Shown: piece by piece, positions 5,487-42,820 of the stretch
How positions within the stretch are numbered: the first letter of the stretch is position 1
How the letters are laid out: each line of letters opens with the position of its first letter
NCBI RefSeq assembly: GCF_030068615.1
Contig: NZ_JASJOC010000014.1
Coordinates: 1-64,000, forward strand
Direction: 5' to 3'
Length of the DNA stretch: 64,000 bases
DNA from: Halostagnicola sp. A-GB9-2
GTDB lineage: Archaea > Halobacteriota > Halobacteria > Halobacteriales > Natrialbaceae
Notes under the pieces: generated by a model
Databases searched by the model: none
What the model was told of the DNA's origin: nothing
Seen by the model: the letters and a program-made list of their open reading frames with translations, nothing else
Translations under genes and position numbers: made by a program

Positions 5487-5489
5487 CCC

Positions 5490-23194: not shown

Positions 23195-23956
23195 ATGACA
23201 CGCGAGACAAGCTCACTCACAACGATTCACCGGGCGTTCGAAATACTCGAGCTCCTGTGGGAGTTAGACGGCGCCGGACCCACCGAGTTGGCTAACCGAA
23301 TGGACCTTCCGGACAGTACCGTCTACGATTACTTGCGATCGCTGAGTGATACGAAGTACGTTACGCGCGAAAATGGAACGTATTTCTTGAGTTCGTATTT
23401 CCTTACGATCGGGGGGAAAATGAAACACCGCAACCGCCTTTTTCAGGTTGCGAAACCGGAGATGAAGCGAATCGCCGCTGAGACGAACGAGTTGGTCGGA
23501 TTGACGATCGAGAACGACGGAATCGCGGTGGTCTTTCACCAGGAGGAAGGGAAACAGGCGTTGAGTCTCGGGACGCATCCGGGAGCTGCGACGCCGCTTC
23601 ACACGCTCGCCACGGGGAAAGCTATACTAGCCTATTTACCGGATGAACGAGTGGACGAGATTATCGCCGAACGCGGCCTCGAACAGCGGACGGACCATAC
23701 GATAACGGACGTCGATCGGCTGAAGGATGAATTAGCTGAAATTAGGGATAACGGGTACGCCGTCGACTGGAACGAGCAAGTTACCGGCATGGGGATGGCT
23801 TCGGTTCCGATTCTTATCGACGATCAAGTACTGGGTTCGTTTGGTATCGTCGTGCCAACCGGGCGTATTCAGGACGAACAATATCAGCAAGAATTATTGC
23901 GAAAATTACAGGAGATGGAGGAAACTGTAACGATTAATTACCAGTTCGGGGAATAG
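23195..23956 (+). CDS. IclR family transcriptional regulator
   Basis: DNA-binding regulator with small-molecule sensing, 253 residues, the normal IclR length. Residues ~8-65 are the winged helix-turn-helix (TTIHRAFEILELLWEL, then GPTELANRMDLPDSTVYDYL). Residues ~75-250 are the IclR effector domain (ETNELVGLTIENDGIAVVFH, ATGKAILAYLPDERVDEI, GMGMASVPI). It lies among aromatic and C1 genes and is the only regulator in the 14-37 kb block. IclR members often control aromatic pathways, as activator or repressor. Confidence 0.93.
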   Translation: MTRETSSLTTIHRAFEILELLWELDGAGPTELANRMDLPDSTVYDYLRSLSDTKYVTRENGTYFLSSYFLTIGGKMKHRNRLFQVAKPEMKRIAAETNELVGLTIENDGIAVVFHQEEGKQALSLGTHPGAATPLHTLATGKAILAYLPDERVDEIIAERGLEQRTDHTITDVDRLKDELAEIRDNGYAVDWNEQVTGMGMASVPILIDDQVLGSFGIVVPTGRIQDEQYQQELLRKLQEMEETVTINYQFGE

Positions 23957-24578
23957 GCCAGGGCCCGGTGAGACGGAGAACGGCTACTCTGGTCTTGACG
24001 GTACATGGAGACGGAAGCCGTCGTGGAAACAATCCGAAGCCGTCGCCAAAGTACTGCTTCCGAGATAGTCGGAATCATACCTCGTGGATGGTTTACCCCT
24101 CGCTGAATTACATTGTACGATTGTAAATGTTGGTGTGGTTGGGAGATGAATACACGGAAATTCATGGGCTTGTACAAGCTTCCACTCCCGATTCGGTCTG
24201 AATCGGATCGAATCGGTGAAGTCTCTCCGCATATATCGGTGCTATTTCCCCATAATTGTATATTTAATTAATACTATTGAGTTGTGAGTATACCTTAGAT
24301 TCCGTAATGCGTCGAGAGACGGTTGTAGACTAGCGCGTAGAAACACCGCACGGCCGTCTCCCACATCCGATTAAATCGGATACAATATCTCGAGCCAGTC
24401 CCGACGCACCGGTCGAGTATCCGGAAAAGCGATCTTCGTTCGAGTGCGGATCGGTCCATGATACAGAACGTCGATTTGTCGCCTGTCGAAGGTCGTTCGT
24501 GCTATCCGAAGATCCGTGTTTCAACCGAACACCTACTATATCGAATGAATTAATAGGGTGGCTCACGTCTCGCTATCC
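23957..24578. other. AT-rich intergenic region before the extradiol dioxygenase gene
   Basis: No gene seen in ~620 bp. It contains TTACA-N9-TGTAA (24108-24126), a perfect 7-bp stem CCGATTC-GGTCT-GAATCGG (24188-24206), an AT-only run near 24255-24275 and the operator palindrome at 24365-24381. The stem may end the IclR transcript or be another binding site; neither can be decided by eye. Confidence 0.45.
24365..24381. promoter_or_regulatory. Candidate IclR-type operator upstream of the extradiol dioxygenase
   Basis: ATCCGATTAAATCGGAT is perfectly symmetric with 8-bp arms around one base, and matches the site over the IclR promoter. It lies about 200 bp before the ATG at 24579, too far upstream for simple promoter occlusion, so activation or a long leader would be needed. 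Confidence 0.55.
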
Positions 24579-25514
24579 ATGTCTCCGGAACTGTCCCGTC
24601 TCGGTCACGTCGCACTCGAAGTACCCGATCTCGAAGCGTCGCTTCGGTTTTACCGGGATTCGGTCGGCCTCGAGGAGGTAGAACGAGAAGGTGACACGGC
24701 GTATCTCCGCGCCGTCGAAGAGTTCGATCACCATTCGCTGCGTCTTCGGGAGTCTGGTTCCGCTGGCGTCGATCACATCGGCTGGCAAACGGAAGATCAA
24801 CAAAGCATCGATGGGTTTGCGGAGCGACTCCGCGATCAGGGTATCGACGTGGCGCGAGTGGAAGCCGGCGAAGAGCGCGGTCAAGGGGAGGCGATTCGGT
24901 TTCAGGTTCCACACGGCCACGAGTTCGAAATCTACCACGAGATGGAAAAACCCGATCCGCCGAAGGAGCGGCGGTCGAAGCTGAAAAACAAATCGTACAT
25001 CTCGGCTGAAACGAGCTCGATCGCTCCGCTTCGCGTTGACCACGTTCAGATCTGGGATACGGACGCGTTCGAAGCCGCCGAGTGGATGCAGGAAACGCTC
25101 GGACTATCGGTGATGGAGTACTATGATCAGAAGGACGGCTCTCGCTGGGGGACCTTTTTGAGCGCGTCAAAGAACAAAATCGAGGCCGCGGTTATTCAAG
25201 GCGAGAGCGACGACGATTGTCCGGGGTTACATCACATCGCATTCACGTCCGAGAGCGCGGAAGATCTGTTCAATGCGGCGGATACGATGAACGAACGCGG
25301 GTACCCGATCGACGGACTCGGCCAGCATTCGATCTCGAGGGGAAAATTCCTCTACGTCAGGGACGACTCAAGCGGCCACCGAGTAGAATTCAACGTCCGC
25401 GGATACCTGGTGTTCGATCCGAACTGGGAGCCGATCGCCTGGCAGGAAGGCGACTTAGACGACCGGCAGTGGATCGGCGAGATCAGGGGATTGGATACCG
25501 TGAAATACAATTGA
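24579..25514 (+). CDS. Extradiol ring-cleavage dioxygenase-like protein lacking the catalytic His
   Basis: Two-domain vicinal-oxygen-chelate protein of 311 residues, of the catechol/homoprotocatechuate 2,3-dioxygenase type. Iron ligands are in place: His155 (RVDHVQIW), His219 (GLHHIAFT), Glu270 (GHRVEFNV). At the position of the acid-base His (His200 of homoprotocatechuate 2,3-dioxygenase) it has Ile201 (NKIEAAVIQG). ATG 24579 is chosen over the GTG at 24558 because the paralog at 30633 begins at the same point relative to the LGHVA motif. It may act on another substrate, by another mechanism, or not as a dioxygenase. Confidence 0.8.
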   Translation: MSPELSRLGHVALEVPDLEASLRFYRDSVGLEEVEREGDTAYLRAVEEFDHHSLRLRESGSAGVDHIGWQTEDQQSIDGFAERLRDQGIDVARVEAGEERGQGEAIRFQVPHGHEFEIYHEMEKPDPPKERRSKLKNKSYISAETSSIAPLRVDHVQIWDTDAFEAAEWMQETLGLSVMEYYDQKDGSRWGTFLSASKNKIEAAVIQGESDDDCPGLHHIAFTSESAEDLFNAADTMNERGYPIDGLGQHSISRGKFLYVRDDSSGHRVEFNVRGYLVFDPNWEPIAWQEGDLDDRQWIGEIRGLDTVKYN

Positions 25515-25739: not shown

Positions 25740-27857
25740 TTAATCGTCGGCCGGTGTTTCGGGGCTGTCTTTCTCGAGCGTGACCTCGATATCAGTCGCC
25801 GCGGCCTTGTACTCGGGGATTTTGGCTCGCTCGTCAAGGACGTCGTTCGTGAGCTTGTTCGCGGAGGCGGCCGCGAAGTGGGGCGTCGTCCAGACGACGC
25901 CTTCCTTGATATCTTCGGTGACCTGCGCCTCGACGGTAATTTCACCCCGTCGAGATCTGAGCGTGACTTCCTCGCCCGTTTCGATCCCGTACCGTTCGGC
26001 GTCATTCGGGTGGATATCGACGAAGTTTTCGGGCGTCTGTCTGTTGAGCGTCGGCGACCGACGGCTCATCGTCCCCGTGTTGTAGTGTTCCTCGAGGCGA
26101 GCGGTCGTCAAGATGAGCGGGTACTCGTCGTCGGGCGTTTCGGCTGGCGGCGTGTGACTCACACCCTCGATGTGACCCAATCCGCTTTCCGTGTCGAACT
26201 CTTCCTCGTAGAGGAACGGATCGCCCTCGTCGCCCAGTTCGTAGCAGGGCCAGTGAAGCCCCTCTTCGCCGAGCAGGTCGTAGGTCATCCCGTGGTAACT
26301 CGGACAAACCTGGCGTAACTCTTCGAAGACCACTTCGGGGTCGTCGAAGTCAAACCCGTCGGCGCCGAACAGACGAACACCGACTTCCGAGAGGATGTCC
26401 AGGTCGTGGCGGGTGTTTTCGTGGACTTTCTCGATTCCGCGCATGCGCTGGACGCGGCGGTCGGTGTTGGTGACGGTCCCACCTCGTTCGGCCCACGAGG
26501 TCGCCGGGAGGATGACATCCGCGTACTCTGCGGTCTCGGTCATGAATATGTCCTGGACGACCATGAACTCGAGTTCCTGGATTCGTTCGGCGACCCGGTT
26601 CGCGTCGGGTTCGCTCATGACAGGGTTTTCACCCATGACGTAGACCCCTTTGATCGAATCCCCGAACTCGTGTGAGATTTCGACGTTCGTCAAACCCGGC
26701 TCGGGCGGGACCTCGAAGCCCCAGACGTCCTCGACCGATTTGCGGGCCTCGTCGTCGTCGACCAGCTGATAGCCGGGCAGGACGTTGGGCATCGCTCCGA
26801 CGTCACAGGTTCCTTGCACGTTGTTCTGTCCGCGCAACGGATTGACGCCCGTTCCGGGCCGACCGAGGTTGCCCGTGATCAGCGCCAGATTAATCTCGTT
26901 TTGGACGTTGTCGACGCCGCACCGATGCTGGCTCATCCCCATCCCGGTGAAGATCGCCGCGTTGTCGGCCGTGGCGTACTTTTTCGCGGCCAGTTCGATG
27001 TCCTCGAGCGGGACGCCACACTCCTCGGCGGCCGCTTCCTTGTCGAAGTCTTCGAGCGTCGCTTTGAGGTCGTCGAATCCTTCGGTTCGCTCCGCGATGA
27101 ACTCCTCGTCGATCCAGTCGTTCTCGAGGGCCGTCTTGATGACGATGTTCAACAGCGGAATATCGGTTCCCGGGTTCAACTGGAGGTGCATGTGCCGTTC
27201 CGTCTCGTCGATCTGGAACGACTGGGTCGTCTTGTTCGCGTGGGGATCGACCTGGATGACGGTCGCACCGTCGAGCATCGCCTGCCGGAAGTATTGACTG
27301 TTCGCGATCGGATGTTGCTCTCCGGGGTTCGCCCCTTGTATCCAGAAGACATCCGTTTCGTCTCGAAGATCCCGCATGCTGTTCGTCATCGCGCCGGCAC
27401 CCAGACTCGTCCGGAGCGCCCACACCGTCGACGCGTGACACATTCGGGTGCAGTTGTCGACGTTGTTGGTTCCGTAGCGCCGAGCCAGCTTTTGAAGGAG
27501 GTAGTTCTCCTCGTTCATCGTCTTCGAGGAGCCGAAAAAGCCCATCGCATCGGGCTCGTACTCCGATCGGATTCGCTCGAGTTCGCTTACAATGTACTCG
27601 TAGCACTCCTCCCAGGTCGCCTCGCGGAACTCCCCGTCCTCCTTGATCAGCGGTTCGGTCAATCGATCCTCGTGGGCAATGACTTCTGTCGCCGCACCGC
27701 CTTTGATGCAGATGCGCCCTTCGTTGACCGGCGCGTCACCCCAGGGCATGAACCGAACGTCGTCGGGTTCTTCGCCCTGTTTGACCTGAATTCCGCATCC
27801 GACGCCGCAGTACGGACAGATCGTTTTGGTGGGAGATTCTGTCTCATCCGTCGACAT
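25740..27857 (-). CDS. fdhA: Formate dehydrogenase catalytic subunit (molybdopterin, Cys type)
   Basis: Oxidises formate to CO2 at a bis-MGD Mo/W centre. From ATG 27857 it has 705 residues, close to E. coli FdhF (715). A [4Fe-4S] cluster is bound by Cys14, Cys17, Cys21 and Cys50 (CPYCGVGC..GRICIKG). Cys140-His141 in NCTRMCHAS stand at the Sec140-His141 site of FdhF, so it is a Cys enzyme. The molybdopterin-binding C-terminal domain ends in VWTTPHFAAASANKL. It lacks the NuoG-like N-terminal iron-sulfur domain of NAD-linked forms, and no electron-transfer subunit or fdhD lies beside it. It would finish oxidation of PurU-derived formate. Confidence 0.9.
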   Translation of the reverse strand: MSTDETESPTKTICPYCGVGCGIQVKQGEEPDDVRFMPWGDAPVNEGRICIKGGAATEVIAHEDRLTEPLIKEDGEFREATWEECYEYIVSELERIRSEYEPDAMGFFGSSKTMNEENYLLQKLARRYGTNNVDNCTRMCHASTVWALRTSLGAGAMTNSMRDLRDETDVFWIQGANPGEQHPIANSQYFRQAMLDGATVIQVDPHANKTTQSFQIDETERHMHLQLNPGTDIPLLNIVIKTALENDWIDEEFIAERTEGFDDLKATLEDFDKEAAAEECGVPLEDIELAAKKYATADNAAIFTGMGMSQHRCGVDNVQNEINLALITGNLGRPGTGVNPLRGQNNVQGTCDVGAMPNVLPGYQLVDDDEARKSVEDVWGFEVPPEPGLTNVEISHEFGDSIKGVYVMGENPVMSEPDANRVAERIQELEFMVVQDIFMTETAEYADVILPATSWAERGGTVTNTDRRVQRMRGIEKVHENTRHDLDILSEVGVRLFGADGFDFDDPEVVFEELRQVCPSYHGMTYDLLGEEGLHWPCYELGDEGDPFLYEEEFDTESGLGHIEGVSHTPPAETPDDEYPLILTTARLEEHYNTGTMSRRSPTLNRQTPENFVDIHPNDAERYGIETGEEVTLRSRRGEITVEAQVTEDIKEGVVWTTPHFAAASANKLTNDVLDERAKIPEYKAAATDIEVTLEKDSPETPADD

Positions 27858-28046
27858 CGTGATCACCTGCTTGATTGTGGGTCATGATATGGTATACTAA
27901 CGCTTCCCACGGGTATGAACCTTTCTCTCATCGCGATTCGGTTCGCCGGGCTGTCTGTCGTTTTTGTGACCGATCCGTACGTCCGCCTGCAGGGGTCAGT
28001 TCCAAGGGCAACATTCACGCTCTTGGCACACGTACCCTCCGTTACG

Positions 28047-28771: not shown

Positions 28772-29548
28772 ATGCTTGACGACGAGACCCGCAATCGGCT
28801 CGCGGAATCGCTCTACGAGGCACTGCAAACGAACGACCCCATCGACAGGCTCACCGAAGCGCACGACATGACGACCGAGGATGCCTACGCCATCCAGTCG
28901 AACCTCGTCGACCGTCGTCTGCAGGACGGCGCGTCTCTCGTCGGTCACAAGATTGGGCTCACGAGCACGGCGATCCGCGACCAACTCGGCGTCCCCGAAC
29001 CCGACTTCGGTCGGTTGCTGGACACGATGTTTATCGACGGGCGGAAAATTCCCGGCGACGAACTCATCGAACCGCGCATCGAACCCGAGATCGGATTCAT
29101 GATCGGCGAGGATCTCGAGCCGCCGGTGTCGTCCCTCGACGTCCTGGCCGCGACCGAGTTCGTCGTTCCGGTTCTCGAAGTGATTGATAGTCGCGTTCGC
29201 GACTGGGATATCCGAATTCAGGATACCATTGCAGACAACGCGTCGTCTGCGTTGTATCTCACCGGCGAGACCCGAAGTGCCGTCGACGGGATCGACCTCT
29301 CCCTGGAGGGGCTGAAGCTCTATCGCAACGGCGAGCTCGAGGCCTCGGGTGTCGGCGCAGCGGTTCTCGATCATCCCGCGCGAGCGGTCGCGTGGCTCGC
29401 GAACACGCTCGACGATTTAGACGAGACGCTCGAGGCTGGGCAGTTTATTTTGAGTGGTTCAGTAACACCCGCGGTCGATATCGAATCCGGAGACGTGTTC
29501 ACGGCCGAATTTGCTTCGATCGGGACGGTTACTGTGACCGTCGAGTAA
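28772..29548 (+). CDS. mhpD: 2-hydroxypenta-2,4-dienoate (2-keto-4-pentenoate) hydratase
   Basis: Adds water to 2-hydroxypenta-2,4-dienoate to give 4-hydroxy-2-oxovalerate. From ATG 28772 it has 258 residues. Seen: GHKIGLTSTAIRDQLGV, the metal-binding Glu pair region PRIEPEIGFMI, and IADNASSALYLTG, whose DNASS form is usual in hydratases (MhpD/DmpE). A longer frame back to 28637 was rejected. It faces, tail to tail, the related decarboxylase at 29670, and together with the aldolase and acylating dehydrogenase completes the lower meta pathway. Confidence 0.87.
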   Translation: MLDDETRNRLAESLYEALQTNDPIDRLTEAHDMTTEDAYAIQSNLVDRRLQDGASLVGHKIGLTSTAIRDQLGVPEPDFGRLLDTMFIDGRKIPGDELIEPRIEPEIGFMIGEDLEPPVSSLDVLAATEFVVPVLEVIDSRVRDWDIRIQDTIADNASSALYLTGETRSAVDGIDLSLEGLKLYRNGELEASGVGAAVLDHPARAVAWLANTLDDLDETLEAGQFILSGSVTPAVDIESGDVFTAEFASIGTVTVTVE

Positions 29549-29669
29549 AAACGGTGTTTCGGCCGTTTTCGGGGGAGCGTTTCCGCCGTCTCACTGAGAC
29601 TCACTGTGGCTGATGAGAGTGGACAAAAATCGAATTATTGTCACATGAGAACAGCGGACAAATCGGTGT

Positions 29670-30452
29670 TCACTCGGCGGTGAGCGTAATCTCTCCGATG
29701 TTTGCGAACTTGATCTGATACACGTCGCCCGGTTCGATGTCGATCGCGGCGTTGATGCCGCCGGTGAGGATCAACTCGCCCGCTTTGAGCCCTTCGTCGA
29801 GTTCGTCGAGTCTGTTTCCGAGCCACGCGACCGCTCGAGCGGGGTGTCCCATGATATCCGCGCCGACTCCCGTCGCCTCGAGTTCCCCGTTGACCGAGAT
29901 GACGACGCTTTCCATCGCGAGGTCGACGTCGGTCACGTCACGAAGCGTTTCTCCGACGAAGACGCGGCCGGCCGACGTGTTGTCGGCGATGACGTCTTGG
30001 GCCGAGGGGATAGTCCACCCCTGGAACCGACTCTCGAGGATCTCGACGACCGGAACGACGGCGCGCGTGGACGTGAGGATATCGGTCGGGGTCACCGGCG
30101 CGGAGATGTCCTCGTCGAGGATAAGGCCGATTTCGGCCTCGAGTCGGGGGGAGATCAGCGAGTCGGTCGGTATCGTCGCCTCGTCGAGTACGGTTTCTTC
30201 GGTCACGGAGCCGAATATCGGCTCCTGAATCCCGAGCTGTTCTTGTTTCGCCTCGCTTACGAGGCCCAGCTTGTGGCCGGTTATCCGCCCGTCATCGCCG
30301 CAAATGCGGTCGATGACCCCTGACTGTATCTCGTAGGCTTCGTCCACCGAAATTTCCTTCTCGTCCGTAAGCGGTGGAATCGGCGAACTCGTCTTCTGTG
30401 CCTCGTAAAGCGATTCCGCGAACTCAGTCGTTTCGTTTTTGCTAAGAGTCAT
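29670..30452 (-). CDS. dmpH: 4-oxalocrotonate decarboxylase-like / second dienoate hydratase
   Basis: Paralog of the hydratase, 260 residues. Seen: TGHKLGLVSEAKQEQLGIQE, PIFGSVTEE, the metal site PRLEAEIGLIL and VIADNTSAGRVFVGE. The PIFG and DNTSA forms resemble 4-oxalocrotonate decarboxylases (DmpH/XylI), which make 2-hydroxypentadienoate by a vinylpyruvate step and often pair with the hydratase. Assignment rests on these short motifs; it could be a second hydratase. No oxalocrotonate tautomerase was found. It is last in the minus-strand run with the dioxygenase and amidohydrolase. Confidence 0.75.
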   Translation of the reverse strand: MTLSKNETTEFAESLYEAQKTSSPIPPLTDEKEISVDEAYEIQSGVIDRICGDDGRITGHKLGLVSEAKQEQLGIQEPIFGSVTEETVLDEATIPTDSLISPRLEAEIGLILDEDISAPVTPTDILTSTRAVVPVVEILESRFQGWTIPSAQDVIADNTSAGRVFVGETLRDVTDVDLAMESVVISVNGELEATGVGADIMGHPARAVAWLGNRLDELDEGLKAGELILTGGINAAIDIEPGDVYQIKFANIGEITLTAE

Positions 30453-30632
30453 CCGGTTTGTTCTTTCGTTGATTGCTTATTTAGTGTTCCGCCTCTCCCG
30501 CATCGATAGTCCCGTTTCAACGGATGGACAACGATGAACGGCGACCGAAATCCGAAATGGTCGAGTCGACTCGGACTCCACTCCGATACGTTGTCTTGAA
30601 GTCGAACGGCGTATCGGAGCTGGTGATCGCGC

Positions 30633-31589
30633 TCAATTAACGTACTCGAGGCCGTCCCATGCCGGTCCTTGGCCGACCCACTGGTGATTAGTTTCGCCGC
30701 CGATGTCTTCTTCCGTCCACTCGATCGGCTCCCAGTCGGGTTCGAAGTTGAGGTACCCGGGACCGGCGAACAGTTCGATGCGGAACCCGCTTGCGGGATC
30801 GGACACGTACAAGAAGTCCGCACGCGTAATCGCGTGACGGCCCGGACCGCCGTCCGGTTCGATACCGTGTTCGCTCAGGATGTCGGCGGCGCTCCAGAGT
30901 TCGTTGAGACTATCGAGGTGATAGGAGAGATGATGGAATCCTTCGGAGGACCCCGGTGGTTCACGATGAATCGCAATATCGTGGGGCAGCGGCGTCACCG
31001 CGAGCCACCATCCCCAGAGCTCGTCGTCTTCCGCTCGGTACCGTTCGTTTAGTCTGAAGCCGAGTTCGTCTTCCAACCAGACTGCGTGGTCCGTGGCCGT
31101 TTCGCTCGGGTCTTGGACGTGAACGTGATCGATGCGCCGCGGTGCGATTCGATTCGCGACGGCTTCGGTGTAGTTGCGATTCTTGAGCCCCGACCGTTGG
31201 TCTTCGGGGGCTCGAGGCTTTTCGACGTCGTAATAGAACTCGTAGGGATGGCCGAACTTCTCGATTCGAATCGCCTCTCCCTGTCCCGATTCGACTCCCG
31301 CGTCGAGATAGGTAACGTCAGTGCCGTTTGTTTCGAATTGGTCGGCGAGTTCGCTCAACGCGTCGGCACTAGACGTCCGAAACGCGATGTGATCGACCCC
31401 TTTCTGTCCCGATTCGGTGATGCTTAGCGTGTGATGTTCCCAATCTCGTTGGCCGCGGAGATAGGCGGTATCGTTGGTCTGTTCGACTATTTGAAGCCCG
31501 AGAACCTCGTTGAAGAACCAGAGTGATTCCTCGAGGTCGGGCGTGTGTATCGCGACGTGGCCGAGTTTTGCGATTTGTGACTTCATCAT
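30633..31589 (-). CDS. Extradiol catechol 2,3-dioxygenase (homoprotocatechuate/catechol type)
   Basis: Fe(II) enzyme that opens a catechol ring beside the hydroxyls. The 318 residues form two vicinal-oxygen-chelate domains. Iron ligands: His155 (RRIDHVHV), His220 (GFHHLSYH), Glu272 (FRIELF). The acid-base His is present, His203 in LPHDIAIH, matching His200 of the homoprotocatechuate enzyme, as does GPGRHAITRADFLYVSDP. It is therefore the likely active ring-cleaver of the cluster. The ring substrate could be protocatechuate, catechol or homoprotocatechuate. It lies between the ACMSD-family decarboxylase and the oxalocrotonate decarboxylase genes. Confidence 0.88.
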   Translation of the reverse strand: MMKSQIAKLGHVAIHTPDLEESLWFFNEVLGLQIVEQTNDTAYLRGQRDWEHHTLSITESGQKGVDHIAFRTSSADALSELADQFETNGTDVTYLDAGVESGQGEAIRIEKFGHPYEFYYDVEKPRAPEDQRSGLKNRNYTEAVANRIAPRRIDHVHVQDPSETATDHAVWLEDELGFRLNERYRAEDDELWGWWLAVTPLPHDIAIHREPPGSSEGFHHLSYHLDSLNELWSAADILSEHGIEPDGGPGRHAITRADFLYVSDPASGFRIELFAGPGYLNFEPDWEPIEWTEEDIGGETNHQWVGQGPAWDGLEYVN

Positions 31590-31593
31590 TCAT

Positions 31594-31609
31594 ATCACCA
31601 GCTAGTGAT
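31594..31609. promoter_or_regulatory. Palindrome at the start of the extradiol dioxygenase gene
   Basis: ATCACCAGCTAGTGAT (5-bp arms ATCAC/GTGAT, AGCT centre) begins 5 bp upstream of the ATG at 31589. A related TCACTAGT lies near 32816 upstream of the amidohydrolase start. It is a possible operator distinct from the TCCGA motif. Confidence 0.35.
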
Positions 31610-31785
31610 AGCCGCGTTCCTGTGTCTCCTGTTGACACAAACCACCGTTGGCGGCTTGCTAAAACTGTTCGTAAGACAGATATATAGGTATTTTCCTCCG
31701 ACCGCTTGCTCTCGAACCGGACATCGGACGACCGAGTACTTCGATGTCGACGACAAAATCCGCAACTGGCCGCCGTTCGAGCGCG

Positions 31786-32745
31786 TTACTCGATCAACTC
31801 GAGGAGGTTTTGGGAGTAGATCTGCTCTCGTTCCGATTCACCGATATCCATCTCCTCGATGGCGTCGAGTCCGTTTTCGATGCCTGCGCGTCCTCGACCG
31901 GGTCCGAACGGGTAGTCGGTGCCGTAGATGAACGTGTCCCCGAAGAGGTCGTACGCGCATTCATGGGCCGAGACGGAGTTCCCGAGACAGCTGTCGGCGT
32001 AAAACTCGCCGAAGTAGTCGCTCACCGGTTGCTCTAGGTCGGGAAGGTCAGTATCGGCGTAATTGTCCGGATACTGCATGCGGGTCTCGTAGAACCCGTC
32101 GATGCGCCCGCTGAAATAGGGAATCATGCCGCCGCCGTGATGGGAAACGATGTCGAGATCGTACTTCTGGACGACGCCGCCGAACACGAGCCGCGAGAGC
32201 GCGAGCGTGGTGTCGAACGGCCAGCCGAAGAGTCGATGATCCATGTACTCGCTCGCCCAGTCGTACCACTCGAACAGTTGTGGGTGGATCCACAGGGGCG
32301 CGTTTTCGGCGTCGGCCTTGGCGAAGAGCGGATCGAACTCTGGTCGATCCAGCGGCTTGCCGTCGATGTTCGAAAAGATCTGAATGCCGGCCATGTCGAG
32401 ATCGTTGACGCACCGGTCGAACTCGTCGATGAACCCGTCGTTGACCTTCGGAATCGTGCCGACCGGAACGAACCGATCGGGGTGCTGATCGGCGATACGC
32501 TTGATCTCGTCGTTCGCTAATTTCGTGAGTTCCAGCGCCGTCTCGTCGCCCATCCCCTGCCAGATCGGTGGCAGGGCGATCGTGATAACCTGCTTGTCGA
32601 TGCCGAACTCGTCCATGTCCCCGAGGCGCTGATCGAGATCCCACAGAAACGACGGCGAGCCGCTGAGACCTTGAAATTCGTACTCCTCGAGCAACGTTTC
32701 GTAGAACCGTTCCGTCAGCGCGTGGGTGAATGCGTCGATTTTCAT
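31786..32745 (-). CDS. Amidohydrolase-2 (ACMSD-family) decarboxylase or hydrolase
   Basis: TIM-barrel metal enzyme of 319 residues. Seen: N-terminal MKIDAFTHALTERF (the usual first His of HxH is Phe6, His8 kept), HPQ in PLWIHPQLF, the double His in DIVSHHGGGMIPYF and the late Asp in YGTDYPFGPG. The family includes aminocarboxymuconate-semialdehyde decarboxylase, 5-carboxyvanillate decarboxylase and oxalomesaconate hydratase. Directly ahead of the ring-cleavage gene, the best fit is decarboxylation of the carboxylated ring-fission product made by 2,3-cleavage of protocatechuate, but decarboxylation of an aromatic acid is possible. Confidence 0.8.
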   Translation of the reverse strand: MKIDAFTHALTERFYETLLEEYEFQGLSGSPSFLWDLDQRLGDMDEFGIDKQVITIALPPIWQGMGDETALELTKLANDEIKRIADQHPDRFVPVGTIPKVNDGFIDEFDRCVNDLDMAGIQIFSNIDGKPLDRPEFDPLFAKADAENAPLWIHPQLFEWYDWASEYMDHRLFGWPFDTTLALSRLVFGGVVQKYDLDIVSHHGGGMIPYFSGRIDGFYETRMQYPDNYADTDLPDLEQPVSDYFGEFYADSCLGNSVSAHECAYDLFGDTFIYGTDYPFGPGRGRAGIENGLDAIEEMDIGESEREQIYSQNLLELIE

Positions 32746-32964
32746 CGTTGGAAGTGTGTGAGCGGTCGTCGAACCCGTTCTCGGACAGTGCTCGGGTTGT
32801 GATACCGATGATACATCACTAGTAACGAATACGCATCATATAAACCTCACGTCCATGCGGCGAGTTCTTCGCCTCTCGTACTCCGTCGGCGCGAGCCCTC
32901 GGGCGTCGGTCGTTTCGCCGCGTTGTTCCGACGATTTTATGCTTTCAGCTATCCATCCACTCCT

Positions 32965-33336
32965 ATGGACGTCATACACAGTGCGCTGTGGGTATCGGAC
33001 ATCGACGAAACGCTGTCGTTTTACGTCGATTCGCTCGGCCTCGAGAAGACGCGGGAATTCGAGAGCGGCGAGGGCGCTCGAAACGTGTTCGTCGCCGGCG
33101 ACTCCGACACGGAGATCCAGTTCAAGTCCCATCCGGACCGCGAGGCGTCCTCGGACGGGTTCGACCACGTGGCAATTGAAGTCGACGATACCGACGCCGA
33201 AGTCGAGCGACTCGTCGAGGAAACGGGCTGTCGGGTTCGGCGGGGCCCGCTCACCTCGGACGGCGCGAACGCTCGAGTCGCGTTCATCGAGGATCCGGAC
33301 GGGTACGGCATCGAACTGGTTCAGGAGTTCGACTGA
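32965..33336 (+). CDS. Glyoxalase/VOC family protein (lactoylglutathione-lyase-like)
   Basis: A single glyoxalase fold of 123 residues from ATG 32965. Metal-ligand positions: His5 (DVIHSALWV), His in GFDHVAIEV and Glu in GYGIELVQEF. Such proteins isomerise methylglyoxal hemithioacetals, bind antibiotics or, rarely, act on aromatic compounds. It is the only plus-strand gene within the minus-strand catabolic run, convergent with the aldolase gene 66 bp away, so it may be an insertion or an independent detoxification gene. Confidence 0.82.
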   Translation: MDVIHSALWVSDIDETLSFYVDSLGLEKTREFESGEGARNVFVAGDSDTEIQFKSHPDREASSDGFDHVAIEVDDTDAEVERLVEETGCRVRRGPLTSDGANARVAFIEDPDGYGIELVQEFD

Positions 33337-33402
33337 CGACCGGCGGTTCGCGACGCTTCTCCGATCGGTTAGCAAAACGAGACGGGACCACTCGAGAGTC
33401 CG

Positions 33403-34440
33403 TTAGTCGTCGGCCTCGGCTTCGTCCGCCCGCTCCTCCGCGATGCTCGCGGCGACGTCGGTAATCATATCCTCTTGTCCACCGACGACGCCCATCTCGC
33501 CCAGTTCGACGAGGATCTCTCGAGGGTCGAGATCGAATTTCTCGCCGACGCGACGGGTGTGTCGCAGGAACGACGAGTAGACGCCCGCGTAGCCCAGGAC
33601 GAGCGAGTCGTTATCGAGTTCGGGCATCGTCTCTTCGGTTAACATCGGAACCAGAACGTCCTCTGCGGCGTCCATCGTACTGAAGAAATCGGGCGTCACG
33701 TCGTACCCGGCTTTCTCGAGCGTGCCGACGAGCACTTCCATCTGGGCGTTCCCGGAGCCGGCACCGAGACCGCGAAGACAGCCGTCCACCGTCGTCGCCC
33801 CGGCTTCGATGCCGGCGAGCGTGTTCCCGATCCCGAGGCCGAGGTTGTTGTGCGCGTGGAACCCGACATCGATTGATAGCTCGTCGGCGAGCAGTCCGAC
33901 CCGCTCGCGAACGTCTTCGGGAAGCATCGCGCCCGCCGAATCCATCACGTAGACCGCGTCAGCGCCGTACTCTTCCATGAGTTTGGCCTGCTCTAACACC
34001 TTCTCCGGCGGCTCCATGTGCGAAAGCATCAGGAGTCCGTTCGCCTCGAGACCCCTGTCCGTGACGAATTCGAAGTGTTCGGCGGAGACGTCCGCCTCCG
34101 TCACGTGGGTCGCGATGCGGCAGATGTCGGCACCTCGGTCGACCGCGAGATCGATCTCTTCGACGGTTCCGATCCCGGGAAGCATCAGCACCGAAAGCTC
34201 GGTATCCGTTAGTTCGGGGACGACCGCCTCGAGGTACTCCGAAGTGTCCGCGGCCGAAAATCCGTAATTGATCGACGAGCCGCCCATGCCGTCGCCGTGG
34301 GAGACTTCGACGACGTCCATCCGCGAGTCGTCGAGGGCGCTTGCGATGTCCGCCATCTGCTCCGGCGTGAACTGGTGGTCGACGGCGTGCATGCCGTCCC
34401 GAAGCGTCATGTCGACGAGTCGAACGTCGCGTTCAGTCAT
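33403..34440 (-). CDS. mhpE: 4-hydroxy-2-oxovalerate aldolase
   Basis: Splits 4-hydroxy-2-oxovalerate into pyruvate and acetaldehyde. From ATG 34440 it has 345 residues, the usual size. Seen: [17 protein letters not shown] (catalytic Arg/metal Asp), the metal His pair in [14 protein letters not shown], and the DmpG communication domain ([23 protein letters not shown]). It overlaps the acylating dehydrogenase by 8 bp. In DmpFG the two proteins form a complex that channels acetaldehyde, which the coupling suggests here too. Confidence 0.95.
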
Positions 34441-35374
34441 CGGCATCACCCCCGACGGTCCGCGCCTCGGCGGAGTGCTCCGCGATTCGTTCTGCCGCAC
34501 CGAGCGCGGCGCTGGTCATAATATCGAGGTTTCCGGCGTACGGCGGTAAGTACTGCCCCTCTCCCTCTACTTCGAGCATCGTCGTGATGACGACCGAATC
34601 GCCGAGATCGAAGCCGACGTCGTCCTGGTCTTTGACGCTCGGCTCGAGGGTCACCTCGTATCCGGGGACGTACGACTGAATTTCGCTCTCGATCTCGGCT
34701 ACAGAGTCGCGGACGTCGTCTACGTCGGTCGTATCCGGAACTTTCGTGTACACCGTGTTTCGCATTAGTATCGGCGGTTCGGCGGGATTGAGGATGATGA
34801 TCGCTTTTCCCTCGTCGGCGCCGCCGACTTCCTCGAGGCCGGCAGCGGTGGTCTGGGTGAATTCATCGATGTTCTGGCGGGTTCCGGGGCCGGCGCTTTC
34901 CGAAGAGATCGTGGATATCATCTCCGCGTACTCGACGTCGGCGACTCGGTTCACCGCGTGGACGAGCGGGATCGTCGCCTGTCCGCCACAGGTGACCATG
35001 TTGATGTTGTTCCCGCTGTTCGTAACGTCGTCCATGTTGACGGCAGGGACCGTGTACGGACCGACTGCCGCAGGGGTGAGATCGATCGCGAACAGGCCGA
35101 GCTCCTCGTACACCGGCGCCTGCTGTTCGTGGACCGTCGCGCTTGTGGCTTCGAAGACGATGTCGAATTCGTCGGCGTGTTCTCGGACACTGTCGATTCC
35201 GTCCGTTCCCACGTCGATACCTTCGTCGACGGCGGCCTGAAGCCCCTCGGACTCGTCTACCGGGAAAATACCGATCATCCGTTGTAGATCGATCGAATTG
35301 CTCCGACCGAGGATCTTGTACATGAGGTCAGTGCCAATGTTTCCAGGACCGACTATCGCGGCGTTCACTGCCAT
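34433..35374 (-). CDS. mhpF: Acetaldehyde dehydrogenase, CoA-acylating
   Basis: Turns acetaldehyde, NAD+ and CoA into acetyl-CoA. The 313 residues show the N-terminal Rossmann motif [29 protein letters not shown] and the catalytic Cys129 in [17 protein letters not shown]. It lies first in the mhpF-mhpE pair with an 8-bp overlap, and its ATG is 125 bp behind the aldehyde dehydrogenase gene. Partner of the aldolase in the final step of the meta pathway. Confidence 0.95.
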
Positions 35375-35498
35375 ACGGTAACAGTCGTATTAGCGATATT
35401 TAGTACTACTGCAAAGCGGATGAGTCAATCGCGATGGAAGCGGCGTATCGATCCTCGGACAGTCTTCCACCAAATATTTCGGAATCGCTTCGGGGCTC

Positions 35499-36992
35499 TT
35501 AGAACAGGTAATCGCGCGACTCGCGCTGGACCGACGTCCACTTCACTTCGGTGAATTCGTCGATGATCCAGTCACCGTTGTACCGACCCATACCGGAGTC
35601 CTTCTTGCCGCCGAACGGCGTGTGCGGCTCCGCGTTGACCGGCTGGTCGTTGACGTGCATCATTCCCACCTCGATCTGGTCCCCGACGTCGCGAGCGCGA
35701 CCGCGGTCCGCCGAATGGACCGAGCCTGCCAGTCCGTATTCGGTCGCGTTCGCGATTTCGATCGCTTCCTCGTCAGTACTGAACGGGATGATCGGCGCGA
35801 CGGGTCCGAAGTGCTCGTTACAGGCGGCAGCCATGTCGTTTTCGACGCCGGTGAGGACGGTCGGTTCGACGAACAGATCGTCGTAGTCGCCGCCGGCCTC
35901 GAGCGTCGCGCCTTCGTCGATCGTTTGCTCGATGTATTCGACGATCTCGTCGCGCTGTTCTTCGTTGATGATCGGCCCGATGACCGTGTCCTCGTCGGTC
36001 GGATCGCCGATCGGAAGTTCGGCCGCGCGGTTCGCGAGCCGCTCGGCGTACTCGTCGTAGAGCGACTCGTGGACGAGATGGCGGTTGATCGAAATGCAGA
36101 CCTGTCCCTGGTGCCAGAACGAACCGAACGTCCCGGCGTCGACCGCGGCGTCGAGGTCGGCATCCTCGAGGACGACGTGCGGGTTGTTCCCGCCCAGTTC
36201 CAGCGCCGGGAGCGCGAAGTGGTTCACGGCGTTCTCCCCGACGAGTCGTCCGGCTCCGGTCGAGCCAGTGAAGGCGACGACGTCGCTGTCGGGATGGGAC
36301 GCCGTCCGGTCGCCCGCCACGGTGCCGTGGCCGGGAACGACGTTTATGACTCCGTCGGGCAATCCGGCCATTTCGAATAGCCGAGCGATGACGAGTCCGC
36401 CGGAAATCGGCGTCTCGGTCGGCGGCTTGAGAACGACGCTGTTCCCGAGGGCGATGGCGGGAGCGACGGCGCGAATCGCGAGTTTCAGTGGCACGTTCCA
36501 CGGGCTGATGACGCCGACGACGCCGGCGGGGTCGCGCTGGATGATGTTTTCCTTCCCTGGAATCTTCGATTGGTTGTGGCGGCCGGACATGCGGAACGCG
36601 AACGACGCCGCATCGTGGACGAACGTCACGGCACCGCCGTGCTCGATGTCGAGCTTGGGCGGGGCGCTTCCCGCCTCGACTGCGAGGATTTCGCGGATCT
36701 CCTCGGCGTGGGTTTCTAGCAGTTGTGCGACCGTCCGAACGACCTTTGCACGCTCGTCGGGTGTTGTTTCGGCCCACGCTTGCTGTGCGCCGACTGCCGC
36801 GTCGTACGCGTCGTCGATGTCTTCGACCTCACCTAACGGAACCTGAGCGATCGTCTCTCTCGTCGCCGGATTTTCCACGGCAACCCGCTCCCGTTCCTCG
36901 ACGGAGCGCCATTCGCCGTCGATAAAGAGCGCGTTCCAGTCACCGTCGACTGATATTTCGGGTCCGTCTGGTCGAGCAGTCTGTTTAGCCAT
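35499..36992 (-). CDS. NAD(P)-dependent aryl-aldehyde dehydrogenase (vanillin/benzaldehyde type)
   Basis: Oxidises an aldehyde to an acid. The 497 residues have catalytic Asn166 (SPWNVPLKL), Lys189, Glu265 (LELGGNNP) and Cys299 (HQGQVCISINR). The HQGQxC motif, VNDQPVNAEPHTPFGG and the ending FTEVKWTSVQ are typical of vanillin/benzaldehyde dehydrogenases, not of 2-hydroxymuconic-semialdehyde dehydrogenases. It would feed the O-demethylase with vanillate-like acids. If it does oxidise the ring-fission semialdehyde instead, it would fill the gap before oxalocrotonate decarboxylase. A TCCGA-type palindrome lies 154 bp upstream. Confidence 0.85.
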   Translation of the reverse strand: MAKQTARPDGPEISVDGDWNALFIDGEWRSVEERERVAVENPATRETIAQVPLGEVEDIDDAYDAAVGAQQAWAETTPDERAKVVRTVAQLLETHAEEIREILAVEAGSAPPKLDIEHGGAVTFVHDAASFAFRMSGRHNQSKIPGKENIIQRDPAGVVGVISPWNVPLKLAIRAVAPAIALGNSVVLKPPTETPISGGLVIARLFEMAGLPDGVINVVPGHGTVAGDRTASHPDSDVVAFTGSTGAGRLVGENAVNHFALPALELGGNNPHVVLEDADLDAAVDAGTFGSFWHQGQVCISINRHLVHESLYDEYAERLANRAAELPIGDPTDEDTVIGPIINEEQRDEIVEYIEQTIDEGATLEAGGDYDDLFVEPTVLTGVENDMAAACNEHFGPVAPIIPFSTDEEAIEIANATEYGLAGSVHSADRGRARDVGDQIEVGMMHVNDQPVNAEPHTPFGGKKDSGMGRYNGDWIIDEFTEVKWTSVQRESRDYLF

Positions 36993-37351: not shown

Positions 37352-38659
37352 TTAGTCGGTTCGTTCGAGGTTCTCGTCCAACCGCTCTTGGAGGTCGTCC
37401 ATGTCGATCTCGTAGACCGGGTCCGAACCCGCCAGATCGAGACTGTGTGCGGCGGCAGCTCCCATCGCGATACAGATACCCATTATCCGGATCGCCGAGA
37501 GGGCTTCGGTATCGGCATCGACACAGCGGCCGACCGTGACGATGTTGTCCGCTCCCTCGGGTATCATACAGGACAGCGGGATGTAGTAGACGTGGCCGTC
37601 TTCGAAGTGCTCCCAGTGAACGTCTTCTGGGGTGTCGTGGAGCTCGACCGACCACGAACCGCGCGCGACGGCGTCGTCTGGCCGGTACCCCTCCCGCAGG
37701 TCGTCGAGCGTCAGTTGCTCACGGCTCTTGATCCAACGGGTTTGGCGGATCCCGGGATTCCCGTAGCGGCGAACGCTCGCGCCATCGAAGATTTCGGAAA
37801 ACTCCGTTTGCAGGAACTCGACTGTCTTGTCGGCCTGCCGGCGTCCCTCGAATACCATATTACCGTACCCGAGCGGGTCCAGCGGCGTCTCGATGTGAGT
37901 GATGTTAGCCAGCATGAAATCCTTCTCGGGAAAGTGCATCAAGTGGCCGTCTTCCCGGACGAGACCGTACTCCTCGCCGACTTCCTCGAGCCGATCGTGG
38001 ACGTCGTCCATGGAGAAGTCCCCAACGGTGTCGGTGTCGTACCCCTCGATGAGAAAGTTCAGCGAGCCGTACACCGGTTCGTTGGGTTCGCGTAGCTCGA
38101 GTCCGGCCTCCCAACAGAGGCTCCCATCGCCGGAGGCGTCGACGAATCCGTCCGCTTCGACTCTGACTGAACCGTACCGCGTCGTGAAATCGAGATGGTC
38201 CACGCGACGGTCGGTGAACTCCACGTCGGTGAGTATCGCAGCGAGCAGCGTTCGCACGCCATGCTGTTGGCACTTTCGTTCCATCCACCGCTGGAGTTCG
38301 ACTTCGTCGTACTGGAACAGGACCGTCGAGAGTTCCGAAGTCTGGGCACTGAGCCGCTGAATCGACCCCTCCGGTTCCAAGTCCTCGATGAGGTCGTCAG
38401 CGATGCCGTGAGTGAGCTGATAGGGATCGTCACCGTGGGAGTACAGTCCGATGAGCGTCCCGATGATCGAGCCGACCGCCTGACCGCCGATCGACTGCGA
38501 CGCGTCGGCCAAGACGACGTCTGCACCCGACTTGGCAGCCTCTAACGCGGTCGAGACGCCTGATATTCCCGCGCCGAGGACGCAGATATCGGCTTCGATG
38601 TGCGTTCGTTCGTCCTGTTCCGACTTGGATACCGTGTCCGTCTGGATGTCTTCTGTCAT
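37352..38659 (-). CDS. FAD-dependent oxidoreductase (FAD_oxidored type)
   Basis: Flavoprotein of 435 residues from ATG 38659; a GTG nine codons upstream is an alternative. Seen: the FAD motif ICVLGAGISGVSTALEAAKSGADV, SQSIGGQAVGS just after it, DGFVDASGDGSLCW and a late Cys-containing segment DNIVTVGRCVDADTEALSAIRI that returns to FAD binding. Family members dehydrogenate diverse substrates, and function is unknown. It lies 101 bp behind the aconitase X small subunit on the same strand, with the TRAP importer further upstream, so it probably processes the imported compound or the dehydrated product. Confidence 0.82.
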   Translation of the reverse strand: MTEDIQTDTVSKSEQDERTHIEADICVLGAGISGVSTALEAAKSGADVVLADASQSIGGQAVGSIIGTLIGLYSHGDDPYQLTHGIADDLIEDLEPEGSIQRLSAQTSELSTVLFQYDEVELQRWMERKCQQHGVRTLLAAILTDVEFTDRRVDHLDFTTRYGSVRVEADGFVDASGDGSLCWEAGLELREPNEPVYGSLNFLIEGYDTDTVGDFSMDDVHDRLEEVGEEYGLVREDGHLMHFPEKDFMLANITHIETPLDPLGYGNMVFEGRRQADKTVEFLQTEFSEIFDGASVRRYGNPGIRQTRWIKSREQLTLDDLREGYRPDDAVARGSWSVELHDTPEDVHWEHFEDGHVYYIPLSCMIPEGADNIVTVGRCVDADTEALSAIRIMGICIAMGAAAAHSLDLAGSDPVYEIDMDDLQERLDENLERTD

Positions 38660-38760
38660 TGTAGCGTCTTCCCCGTTGTGTTTCACTGCCCGTTGACGAA
38701 CCCTGGTAGGGGCCAGAGTTCCCCCGATGATCGTGTCCGGTTCGCGATCGGAAATACCGG

Positions 38761-39210
38761 TTACTCTGGTACGTCCCCGTCGCCGGAGCCAGCGCGTTTC
38801 GTGATCGTTACGATACCCTCGTCACCGTCGACGGCCACCAGATCGCCGCTGTCGATGATCTCTGTCGGATCCTCGTCTAGGTCGGTCACGGCAGGCACCC
38901 GCGTGACGACAGCCCCGAGCGCCACTTTCGTGGTCGTCTCTTCGTAGATCATCGCAGCGGGTGCGGTGTCGGCCAGCCGCGTCGTGTGAAAGACTGACGA
39001 CCAGCCCGAGGAGCCCTTCGCGCCTCGGAACACGAGCACCTTGTCCGTGAACGATTCGCCGTGGAGGTCGTGGCGCATTTCGATAATCGTCCCGTGTTCC
39101 GGATCGACGCCGCCCCAGCCGGAGATCGTCTCGTCGGTGACGATGGCCTCCGCCTCGATATAGCCGTCGACGACGGGGCGTCCCTCGAGAACGATCGTCT
39201 CGTCGGTCAT
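38761..39210 (-). CDS. Aconitase X, small (swivel) subunit
   Basis: A 149-residue swivel-domain protein (former DUF126) that pairs with the large subunit to form a dehydratase. Seen: GRPVVDGYIEAEAIVT, GWGGVDPEHGTIIE and FRGAKGSSGWSSVF, whose Ser loop lies in the active site of aconitases. It overlaps the large subunit gene by 4 bp (ATGA), so equal production is expected. Bacterial forms are often fused; here the two are separate, as in archaeal and fungal-like types. Confidence 0.9.
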   Translation of the reverse strand: MTDETIVLEGRPVVDGYIEAEAIVTDETISGWGGVDPEHGTIIEMRHDLHGESFTDKVLVFRGAKGSSGWSSVFHTTRLADTAPAAMIYEETTTKVALGAVVTRVPAVTDLDEDPTEIIDSGDLVAVDGDEGIVTITKRAGSGDGDVPE

Positions 39211-40493
39211 GGCCGCTCACCGTCCCAGGAACCGGAGATTGCCGCATCGATGACGTCTTCGGTCGAGCCGAACCACGCCTCGACGTCCATGATGGCCGGA
39301 AGATAGTGAACTTGCTTGGCCGAATCGAGCGCGACGACGTCGGTCTCCGGCGGGACGGCCTGACTCATCGACGAACACGTATCGGTCATCATCTTCCCGC
39401 CGGCGGCACGGATCACGTCCGCGTGCCCCTCTTGTTCGGCTTGATCCCGAACCTTTCGAGACGCGAACAGCCACAGTTCGACGTCTTCGTCGAGCTCGTT
39501 CCCCTCCAGGAGACGACTGGCTTCCCGCACCTGTTCTATCGAGTAGTGCGGACAGCCCAGCATCACGAAGTCGATGTCGCGGTCGTCACCGACAGCATTG
39601 AGTTCGTCGTACACCTCCCTGCGGGCCTCCTTGTCGTAGCGATAGACGTCCTCCGGTTCGTTGGGACCGAACGCACTGGCCTCGGTCTCGGCTTCCGGGG
39701 TTTCGCCGACGACGTGGTAGAGTTCGATCCCGCCGGAGGTCGCCGCAGAGGCGCCGAAGTGCTTGTGCTCTACCCGGCTCGGACTCCCGTAGTCACCGAT
39801 CAGAACGGGGATGTCTTCCTGAATGTGTTTACCGACGAAATAGCCTAGCATTCCCCAATTCATGATATCGTCGACCGGCACGTCGACTTCTATCCGATGG
39901 GTTCCGTACCTGTTCTCATCCCGATGGAGCCCCCAGTCGGGAATTTTACCCGTGAGCATCGCGGCACTGGTGCTTTCACGTCCCTCGACGTTCGTCCGCG
40001 CACCGAGGACGGAGTTGATGAACACGACGGCCGACGACTCCATCCACGCACAGTGTTCCCCGTACGACGGGAGGTTTCCCGCGTGGTACGGCGTACACGT
40101 CTTCAGAACTTCGACATCGTGGTCGGCGGCGAATTCCTCGCTTATACGGTCCAGTTCGGCGTTTTTCTGGTCGGTTCCCAGCTCGTCCCAATGTTTGGGT
40201 TCGACCTTCCCCTGCAGTCGGGTGGCACCGGCCTCGGTATCGGGGACGTCAACGACCCGATCGCTATCGAGATCGTATCGCGAGAATATCTCGTCGTGAC
40301 TGGTACTCTCCCCGCCGTAGTAGTTCTCGAGGAATTCGTTGACCGCTCCGGGGACACCAGCAACGTTGTCCGTACTAATGAGGCGGTCGGCGTCTAGCGC
40401 TTCGGCGTACCTGATCAGTAGATCCATCGCCACCTGTTTGGCGGGACCCTCCTCACCGTTCAGCATGGCCCGTTCGTCGGGATCTAGTTCCAT
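39207..40493 (-). CDS. Aconitase X, large catalytic subunit
   Basis: A 428-residue dehydratase (former DUF521). Three Cys motifs fit a 4Fe-4S or metal site: LKTCTPYHAGNLPSYGEH, MLGCPHYSIEQV and MTDTCSSMSQA. Known members are cis-3-hydroxy-L-proline dehydratases in bacteria and phosphomevalonate dehydratases in many archaea. Haloarchaea are thought to make isoprenoids by a mevalonate route without phosphomevalonate dehydration, and this gene sits with a TRAP importer and an oxidoreductase, so a catabolic dehydratase is inferred. The substrate is unknown; cis-3-hydroxyproline is one candidate. Confidence 0.9.
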   Translation of the reverse strand: MELDPDERAMLNGEEGPAKQVAMDLLIRYAEALDADRLISTDNVAGVPGAVNEFLENYYGGESTSHDEIFSRYDLDSDRVVDVPDTEAGATRLQGKVEPKHWDELGTDQKNAELDRISEEFAADHDVEVLKTCTPYHAGNLPSYGEHCAWMESSAVVFINSVLGARTNVEGRESTSAAMLTGKIPDWGLHRDENRYGTHRIEVDVPVDDIMNWGMLGYFVGKHIQEDIPVLIGDYGSPSRVEHKHFGASAATSGGIELYHVVGETPEAETEASAFGPNEPEDVYRYDKEARREVYDELNAVGDDRDIDFVMLGCPHYSIEQVREASRLLEGNELDEDVELWLFASRKVRDQAEQEGHADVIRAAGGKMMTDTCSSMSQAVPPETDVVALDSAKQVHYLPAIMDVEAWFGSTEDVIDAAISGSWDGERP

Positions 40494-40687
40494 CGCTGAT
40501 CACCTGAGCCCCACTCAGGTGAACGGGACGGTCCGATCCCTGTTATAGTCGGTTTAGTAATATGTTTTCTCCGTACAACTAGTCCGTGTGTGTTTATCAT
40601 ACACATACACTATTACCTTATCAGTGGCTAAAAGCTTTCGTCGGTACTCCGGCGAAAAGGATTCGTAAATCGGGAGAACTAATCCAA

Positions 40688-42760: not shown

Positions 42761-42820
42761 ACAGGCTCCTCTCCCGTATTCATAACTAGTATCATATTTT
42801 GTATTGTGGGTGGAGTTCCG

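Follow-up and report, generated by a model that had tools for sequence, protein, structure and literature searches.

In Bacteria, the dehydrogenative meta pathway is encoded by operons of the dmp/xyl type, for instance that of plasmid pDK1, which hold genes for a dioxygenase, an aldehyde dehydrogenase, a hydratase, a decarboxylase, an acetaldehyde dehydrogenase and an aldolase. Genes for protocatechuate 2,3-cleavage, praABEGFDCHI, were reportedly described by Kasai et al. in 2009 in Paenibacillus sp. JJ-1b. The product of praA is the protocatechuate 2,3-dioxygenase (PMC7814577). In Archaea, Sulfolobus solfataricus 98/2 carries out meta-degradation of phenol with an induced catechol 2,3-dioxygenase, no other meta-pathway gene having been identified in its genome (PMC3859572). 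The haloarchaeon Halostagnicola sp. A-GB9-2 would have extradiol meta-cleavage in common with Sulfolobus and differs from it in possessing a nearly complete lower pathway, clustered at positions 28772–36992 of the stretch analysed here (the window, which makes up the initial 64 kb of a contig of 90 kb in a genome of 4.68 Mb). To our knowledge, characterised aromatic breakdown in haloarchaea proceeds largely through gentisate. Haloarchaeal work cited in a review includes a Haloferax gentisate 1,2-dioxygenase and benzoate breakdown via gentisate (PMC4005966). In the part of the literature that was covered, no publication on a haloarchaeal O-demethylase or on haloarchaeal protocatechuate 2,3-cleavage was found.

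The cluster comprises eight genes, named here HYD2 (plus strand), HYD1, DO1 and AmH2 (minus), VOC (plus), and HOA, AcDH and ALDH (minus). It encodes actual or putative counterparts of all the dmp/xyl enzymes listed above and keeps the order of the acetaldehyde dehydrogenase (AcDH) and aldolase (HOA) genes, whereas it lacks the 4-oxalocrotonate tautomerase and the alpha/beta hydrolase of those operons, contains in addition an ACMSD-family protein (AmH2) and a VOC protein, and is laid out as two minus-strand blocks with separate plus-strand genes. We propose, with a probability of about 0.58 and on the basis of sequence comparison, that this cluster degrades a carboxylated catechol, most likely protocatechuate, to pyruvate and acetyl-CoA. 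A first-pass annotation had already suggested a full lower meta-cleavage pathway from a catechol to these two products in an archaeon. Protein families, residues and synteny all lend good support to the route itself. The five genes named in that annotation are real, with open reading frames that coincide with the positions first assigned to them or lie close by, and each has a significant family match. Three conserved members had been left out, namely AmH2 (31786–32745), VOC (32923–33336) and ALDH (35499–36992). The pathway is not full by the bacterial standard, as the genome has no PF01361 tautomerase, and plain catechol as the substrate is probably imprecise in view of the ACMSD-family partner and a non-catechol pocket.

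Chance is excluded as an origin of this arrangement, because it recurs in at least 13 further distinct haloarchaeal clusters. Comparison of the window proteins by tblastn with loci from other genomes has revealed the same set in two strains of Natrarchaeobius chitinivorans, several species of Halobellus, two species of Halarchaeum and further genera. The cluster is therefore an established haloarchaeal module and no local accident; six or more haloarchaeal genera have it, and seven have the DO1–AmH2 pair. Given this recurrence and the meta-cleavage already reported in Sulfolobus, it is not unique.

DO1 (30633–31589, minus strand) is a type I (VOC) extradiol dioxygenase, probably a protocatechuate 2,3-dioxygenase. 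The first-pass annotation had credited it with all catalytic residues, and these are indeed in place: the metal triad H155/H220/E272, together with H203, H252 and Y261. Its best model is that of catechol 2,3-dioxygenase (TIGR03211), which it matches with 252 bits, short of the cut-off of 320, so that it does not qualify as a catechol equivalog. DO1 was aligned with a sequence of homoprotocatechuate 2,3-dioxygenase in which the known catalytic residues stand at their expected numbers. Position 157 is His in DO1 and Asn in the catechol-type relatives, while position 293 is His in DO1 and Arg in homoprotocatechuate 2,3-dioxygenase, both His residues being invariant across the DO1 class. We take Arg 293 of the latter enzyme to bind the substrate carboxylate. 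H157 and H302 are likewise invariant in the class, catechol enzymes having Asn and no basic residue, respectively, and it is this H157/H302 class that is found beside AmH2. Haloarchaeal dioxygenases of three other loci (L102, L103 and L190) have the catechol-type N157 and lie in clusters without AmH2. The last of these, a second cluster in genome G064, keeps ALDH, HYD1, VOC, HOA and AcDH and has a catechol-type dioxygenase and no AmH2; with the whole lower pathway thus present, AmH2 follows the type of dioxygenase and not the lower pathway. The Mn-dependent BphC of Geobacillus sp. JF8 is 49% identical to DO1 and also adjoins a hydratase–AcDH–aldolase set, but it has the N157-type pocket, and AmH2, ALDH and HYD1 are missing beside it.

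AmH2 (31786–32745, minus strand) is an ACMSD-family amidohydrolase (Amidohydro_2, PF04909), and probably acts as decarboxylase of the carboxylated ring-cleavage product. It lies about 0.2 kb from DO1, and the two are associated well beyond this locus. Among 292 Halobacteria searched, DO1 (at least 50% identity) is present in 13/13 genomes with an AmH2 orthologue (more than 580 bits), with a hypergeometric p of about 1e-21 by genome and 3e-9 by genus, uncorrected for relatedness. Four loci (L091, L094, L112 and L175) have DO1 and AmH2 as neighbours with the lower pathway not nearby, which indicates that the two genes are linked to each other and not only to the pathway. The closest characterised relative of AmH2 is ACMSD, itself a decarboxylase of a ring-cleavage product: in the Protein Data Bank (PDB), human ACMSD is matched with 113 bits, LigW with 87 and gamma-resorcylate decarboxylase with 66. 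The co-occurrence of DO1 and AmH2, the non-catechol pocket and the kinship with ACMSD together argue for a carboxylated catechol that would be cleaved first and decarboxylated afterwards.

It could be argued instead that AmH2 acts first, making catechol from protocatechuate or 2,3-dihydroxybenzoate, and that DO1 is a plain catechol 2,3-dioxygenase. Amidohydro_2 does include aromatic acid decarboxylases, among them LigW and gamma-resorcylate decarboxylase, the best model of DO1 is the catechol enzyme, and the bacterial proteins most closely related to DO1 come from HYD2–AcDH–HOA clusters. We nevertheless consider this unlikely, since H157 and H302 set DO1 apart from catechol-type dioxygenases, the haloarchaeal ones included, ACMSD acts on the product of ring cleavage, and the bacterial relatives of AmH2 are paired with aldehyde dehydrogenases (Sagittula, Pacificitalea). 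A carboxylated substrate could also be 2,3-dihydroxybenzoate, with 3,4-cleavage followed by decarboxylation to 2-hydroxymuconate semialdehyde. The same lower pathway would result, and the sequence evidence does not separate the two substrates; we prefer protocatechuate because DesA-like aryl O-demethylases occur in 9/13 AmH2 genomes, a co-occurrence which favours supply through vanillate and protocatechuate and makes 2,3-dihydroxybenzoate rather improbable. With ACMSD as nearest characterised relative, AmH2 and ALDH might also be read as ACMSD and aminomuconate semialdehyde dehydrogenase of the kynurenine pathway, standing beside a catechol cluster by accident. This is very hard to credit, since the position aligned with the substrate Arg of ACMSD is not Arg in AmH2, and AmH2 tracks DO1. 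A search of the genome for the 3-hydroxyanthranilate dioxygenase family (PF06052) gave no match, although the control genomes had none above the cut-off either, so a miss is possible.

Several observations weigh against degradation of a carboxylated catechol as proposed here. HOA and AcDH pass their curated cut-offs, but DO1, HYD1, HYD2 and ALDH, all of the right families, fall below the equivalog ones. AmH2 has lost one of the two metal ligands of its HxH motif, and its aligned ACMSD substrate-Arg position is not Arg. The DO1 signature is found at L098 without a full AmH2 nearby, the DO1-class gene of L119 has no AmH2 beside it either, and Halobellus has DO1-class singletons without AmH2 at the locus (the genomes of this kind that were searched have AmH2 elsewhere); bacterial relatives of DO1 (43–50%) stand in clusters without AmH2. 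The 4-oxalocrotonate tautomerase (PF01361) was not found in the genome at E values up to 0.01, and the FAD_binding_3 proteins examined included no recognisable 4-hydroxybenzoate 3-hydroxylase. Finally, the likeness to the pra system is drawn at the level of gene roles.

The loss in AmH2 concerns the first His of HxH, which is Phe or Tyr in 7/7 orthologues, and Tyr is also found in the uncharacterised PDB entry 3ij6. H8, H154, H202/H203, R214 and D277 are invariant. Of the features that define ACMSD, H8, H154, D277 and the Arg contributed by the neighbouring subunit (R214) are therefore present, while the first HxH His and the other Arg are absent, and AmH2 is not an ACMSD in the strict sense. 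An AlphaFold model of AmH2 (seven sequences) had a mean pLDDT of 56 and was not used. Paralogues of AmH2 (40–46%) directly adjoin DesA paralogues at positions 10400–12900 of L194 (Halobellus-type genome G126) and 8900–11400 of L195 (Halarchaeum genome G222), which suggests that some O-demethylases work with a decarboxylase or a hydrolase as partner.

The current model proposes that protocatechuate could come, for instance, from vanillate through demethylation by the DesA-like enzyme encoded nearby. Cleavage by DO1 would take place adjacent to the carboxylated carbon of the ring and yield a carboxy-2-hydroxymuconate semialdehyde, which AmH2 would decarboxylate to 2-hydroxymuconate semialdehyde and ALDH would then oxidise to 2-hydroxymuconate. 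This enol would ketonise spontaneously or by means of the VOC protein, so that HYD1 could decarboxylate it to 2-oxopent-4-enoate, to be hydrated by HYD2. HOA would split the product into pyruvate and acetaldehyde, the latter being passed to AcDH for conversion to acetyl-CoA. Sequence families, residues and the conserved association of the genes are observed directly, whereas we infer every one of these reactions from them; least certain are which substrate is used, whether AmH2 acts after DO1 or before it, and what the VOC protein does. If true, the scheme would give salt lakes an archaeal route by which (methoxylated) aromatic acids enter central metabolism. Were protocatechuate the substrate, the cluster would work like the pra pathway, which combines an extradiol dioxygenase, a decarboxylase of the ring-cleavage product, a semialdehyde dehydrogenase and the common lower pathway, but it lacks the tautomerase gene (praC) and a recognised 4-hydroxybenzoate hydroxylase. 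The cluster works like the bacterial dehydrogenative meta pathway, perhaps like pra, and is a strict member of neither, since it has no tautomerase and DO1 does not qualify as a catechol equivalog. A Brevibacillus cluster (L161) considered as a pra operon proved to be of the standard catechol type, hydrolase and tautomerase included.

The two FAA hydrolase family proteins, HYD2 (28772–29548, plus strand) and HYD1 (29670–30452, minus strand), are paralogues. Against the dmpE (TIGR03220) and dmpH (TIGR03218) models, HYD2 scores 264 and 221 bits and HYD1 203 and 192 bits, all below cut-off. Both were also compared with plasmid-encoded proteins annotated as DmpE or DmpH. At positions that separate the bacterial groups, HYD2, a 2-oxopent-4-enoate hydratase-type protein, has the hydratase residues I68, D78, T152 and S230, while HYD1 has mostly those of the decarboxylase (K69, I79, F/Y143, which is F143 in the window, V154 and G232), making it a probable 4-oxalocrotonate (2-oxo-3-hexenedioate) decarboxylase. 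These signatures fit the earlier naming of a hydratase and an oxalocrotonate decarboxylase-like protein. HYD1 is confined to dehydrogenative-type clusters, and HYD2 occurs also in haloarchaeal clusters without HYD1. In a tree of 47 sequences (LG+G4+F; thinly sampled, with weak deep nodes of 39–64), HYD1 and HYD2 group in one haloarchaeal clade (ultrafast bootstrap, UFBoot, 98), separate from that of DmpH (100). On this tree, we rejected the idea that HYD1 is a transferred bacterial DmpH: unlike the decarboxylase of dmp/xyl operons, it would have come from a haloarchaeal paralogue. Because this clade lies apart from DmpH, the decarboxylase-like residues of HYD1 would be either convergent or old.

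HOA (33403–34446, minus strand) is a 4-hydroxy-2-oxovalerate aldolase by TIGR03217 (471 bits, cut-off 286) and carries the DmpG communication domain PF07836; its start is the ATG at 34446 or that at 34440, the longest frame beginning at 34500. AcDH (34433–35374, minus strand) is an acylating acetaldehyde dehydrogenase by TIGR03215 (397 bits, cut-off 282), with C129 in a CGGQ motif. As first noted, the two genes overlap, by 14 nt from ATG 34446 or by 8 nt from ATG 34440, with AcDH before HOA as in dmpFG. ALDH (35499–36992, minus strand; PF00171, 532 bits) is probably a 2-hydroxymuconate semialdehyde dehydrogenase. It scores 390 bits with the HpaE model and 327 bits with TIGR03216 (cut-off 693), reaching no equivalog cut-off, and is syntenic with HYD1 and HOA in most clusters.

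The tautomerase that is lacking here is present in 5/5 bacterial clusters with two FAA-hydrolase paralogues; a search of 12 cluster-bearing haloarchaeal genomes with PF01361 gave partial, marginal matches near the cut-off, inside longer frames, in 3/12. The VOC protein (32923–33336, plus strand), a single-domain glyoxalase-I-like metalloprotein with invariant H19, E64, H82 and E131, is a tentative and somewhat doubtful candidate for a replacement 2-hydroxymuconate tautomerase. Its metal ligands match those of glyoxalase I, and GloA2 and the glyoxalase I of E. coli are the best fold matches of its model (mean pLDDT 73). In the glyoxalase I reaction a proton is transferred via an enediolate, and ketonisation calls for chemistry of this sort. 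Having the VOC/glyoxalase fold and neither PF01361 nor its N-terminal Pro, the protein could only work like 4-oxalocrotonate tautomerase and not be a member of that family. It occurs in 14/14 distinct HYD1 clusters and is absent from L098, L102 and L103 (Fisher p 0.0015, uncorrected), which are of the hydrolytic type, with an alpha/beta hydrolase instead of HYD1 and ALDH.

There is an even chance that VOC has nothing to do with the pathway and serves as a glyoxalase or in detoxification, 2-hydroxymuconate ketonising without an enzyme or going directly to HYD1. VOC paralogues are common (198/292 haloarchaeal genomes), and the protein has counterparts outside any such cluster, 80% identical in G137 and 58% in G183. 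Against this stands its distribution, as the close VOC type, constant in HYD1 clusters and missing from the three without HYD1, is found in 11/11 HYD1 genomes and in one other genome above 180 bits. In G137, the 80% identical VOC gene (locus L189, around position 9800) stands beside a peptide-type ABC transporter and a ketol-acid-reductoisomerase-like gene, with no aromatic cluster, which is evidence for a possible other role of VOC. The cluster makes it possible to test how 2-hydroxymuconate is ketonised, by a protein or without one, in an organism that lacks the bacterial tautomerase. That haloarchaea assembled a dehydrogenative pathway of their own, from the DO1 class with an ACMSD-like decarboxylase, a DmpH-independent decarboxylase derived from a hydratase paralogue and a glyoxalase-I-fold tautomerase substitute, is possible but, taken as a whole, doubtful.

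An aryl-O-demethylase/folate one-carbon (C1) module lies 12 kb from the cluster, both being contained within 37 kb. The O-demethylase (16434–17786, plus strand) is a DesA/LigM-like, tetrahydrofolate-dependent protein scoring 472 bits with the DesA model (cut-off 800), 400 with the LigM model (cut-off 580) and 351 against LigM in the PDB. Its Y246 and H63 align with the catalytic Tyr and His of LigM, which we take to be Y247 and H60. DesA is found in 13/292 Halobacteria (Halobellus genomes hold as many as five copies), and its co-occurrence with AmH2 noted above has a p of about 1e-11 by genome and 1e-4 by genus, uncorrected for relatedness. The region 7181–27866 holds, besides this O-demethylase, genes for C1-tetrahydrofolate oxidation (MetF, 18697–19560, plus strand, and PurU, 19757–20725, minus strand, assigned as open reading frames syntenic with DesA), FolD (7181–8086), folate synthesis genes and a formate-dehydrogenase-like protein with molybdopterin oxidoreductase domains (25740–27866). 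MetF/PurU/FolD-type C1 genes are likewise annotated in Halostagnicola larsenii, and the region apparently specifies a haloarchaeal pathway in which methoxyl groups are converted to CO2 via tetrahydrofolate. A conserved separate module consists of CoA ligase, DesA, 2-hydroxyacid dehydrogenase, IclR, MetF, HpcH and DO2 with folate and C1 genes. The IclR-type regulator of this module (23195–23956, plus strand; PcaR/PcaU/PobR subfamily model, 127 bits) has 59–80% identical copies in O-demethylase modules elsewhere, and other IclR genes occur in the clusters of relatives.

DO2 (24558–25514, plus strand), the second extradiol-type dioxygenase of the window and part of the O-demethylase module, keeps the metal triad and has I208 in place of the acid-base His. 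Ile at this position is found in 9/9 DO2 sequences, several of them near O-demethylase genes; position 157 is Gln and position 293 is Arg. Exchange of the acid-base His for Phe in one extradiol enzyme is said to turn extradiol into intradiol cleavage. The DO1 and DO2 classes, the latter with its natural loss of this His, are thus natural variants for studies of extradiol dioxygenase specificity.

Genes for a FAD oxidoreductase, a two-gene aconitase X and a TRAP-TAXI transporter (37352–43903, minus strand) adjoin the pathway. They were rejected as part of it, since aconitase X accompanies the cluster in none of the other genomes examined. An aldehyde ferredoxin oxidoreductase is encoded at 54843–56519 (plus strand), and homologues with about 66% identity adjoin the pathway in Natrarchaeobius, Halobellus and G064; these may oxidise a pathway aldehyde, one such locus (L089) having no ALDH nearby. 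The same genome also carries a second aromatic cluster on contig C37 (L197, positions 3500–13400), with a salicylate/3-hydroxybenzoate-monooxygenase-like protein, an extradiol-type dioxygenase and two HpaG-like hydrolases.

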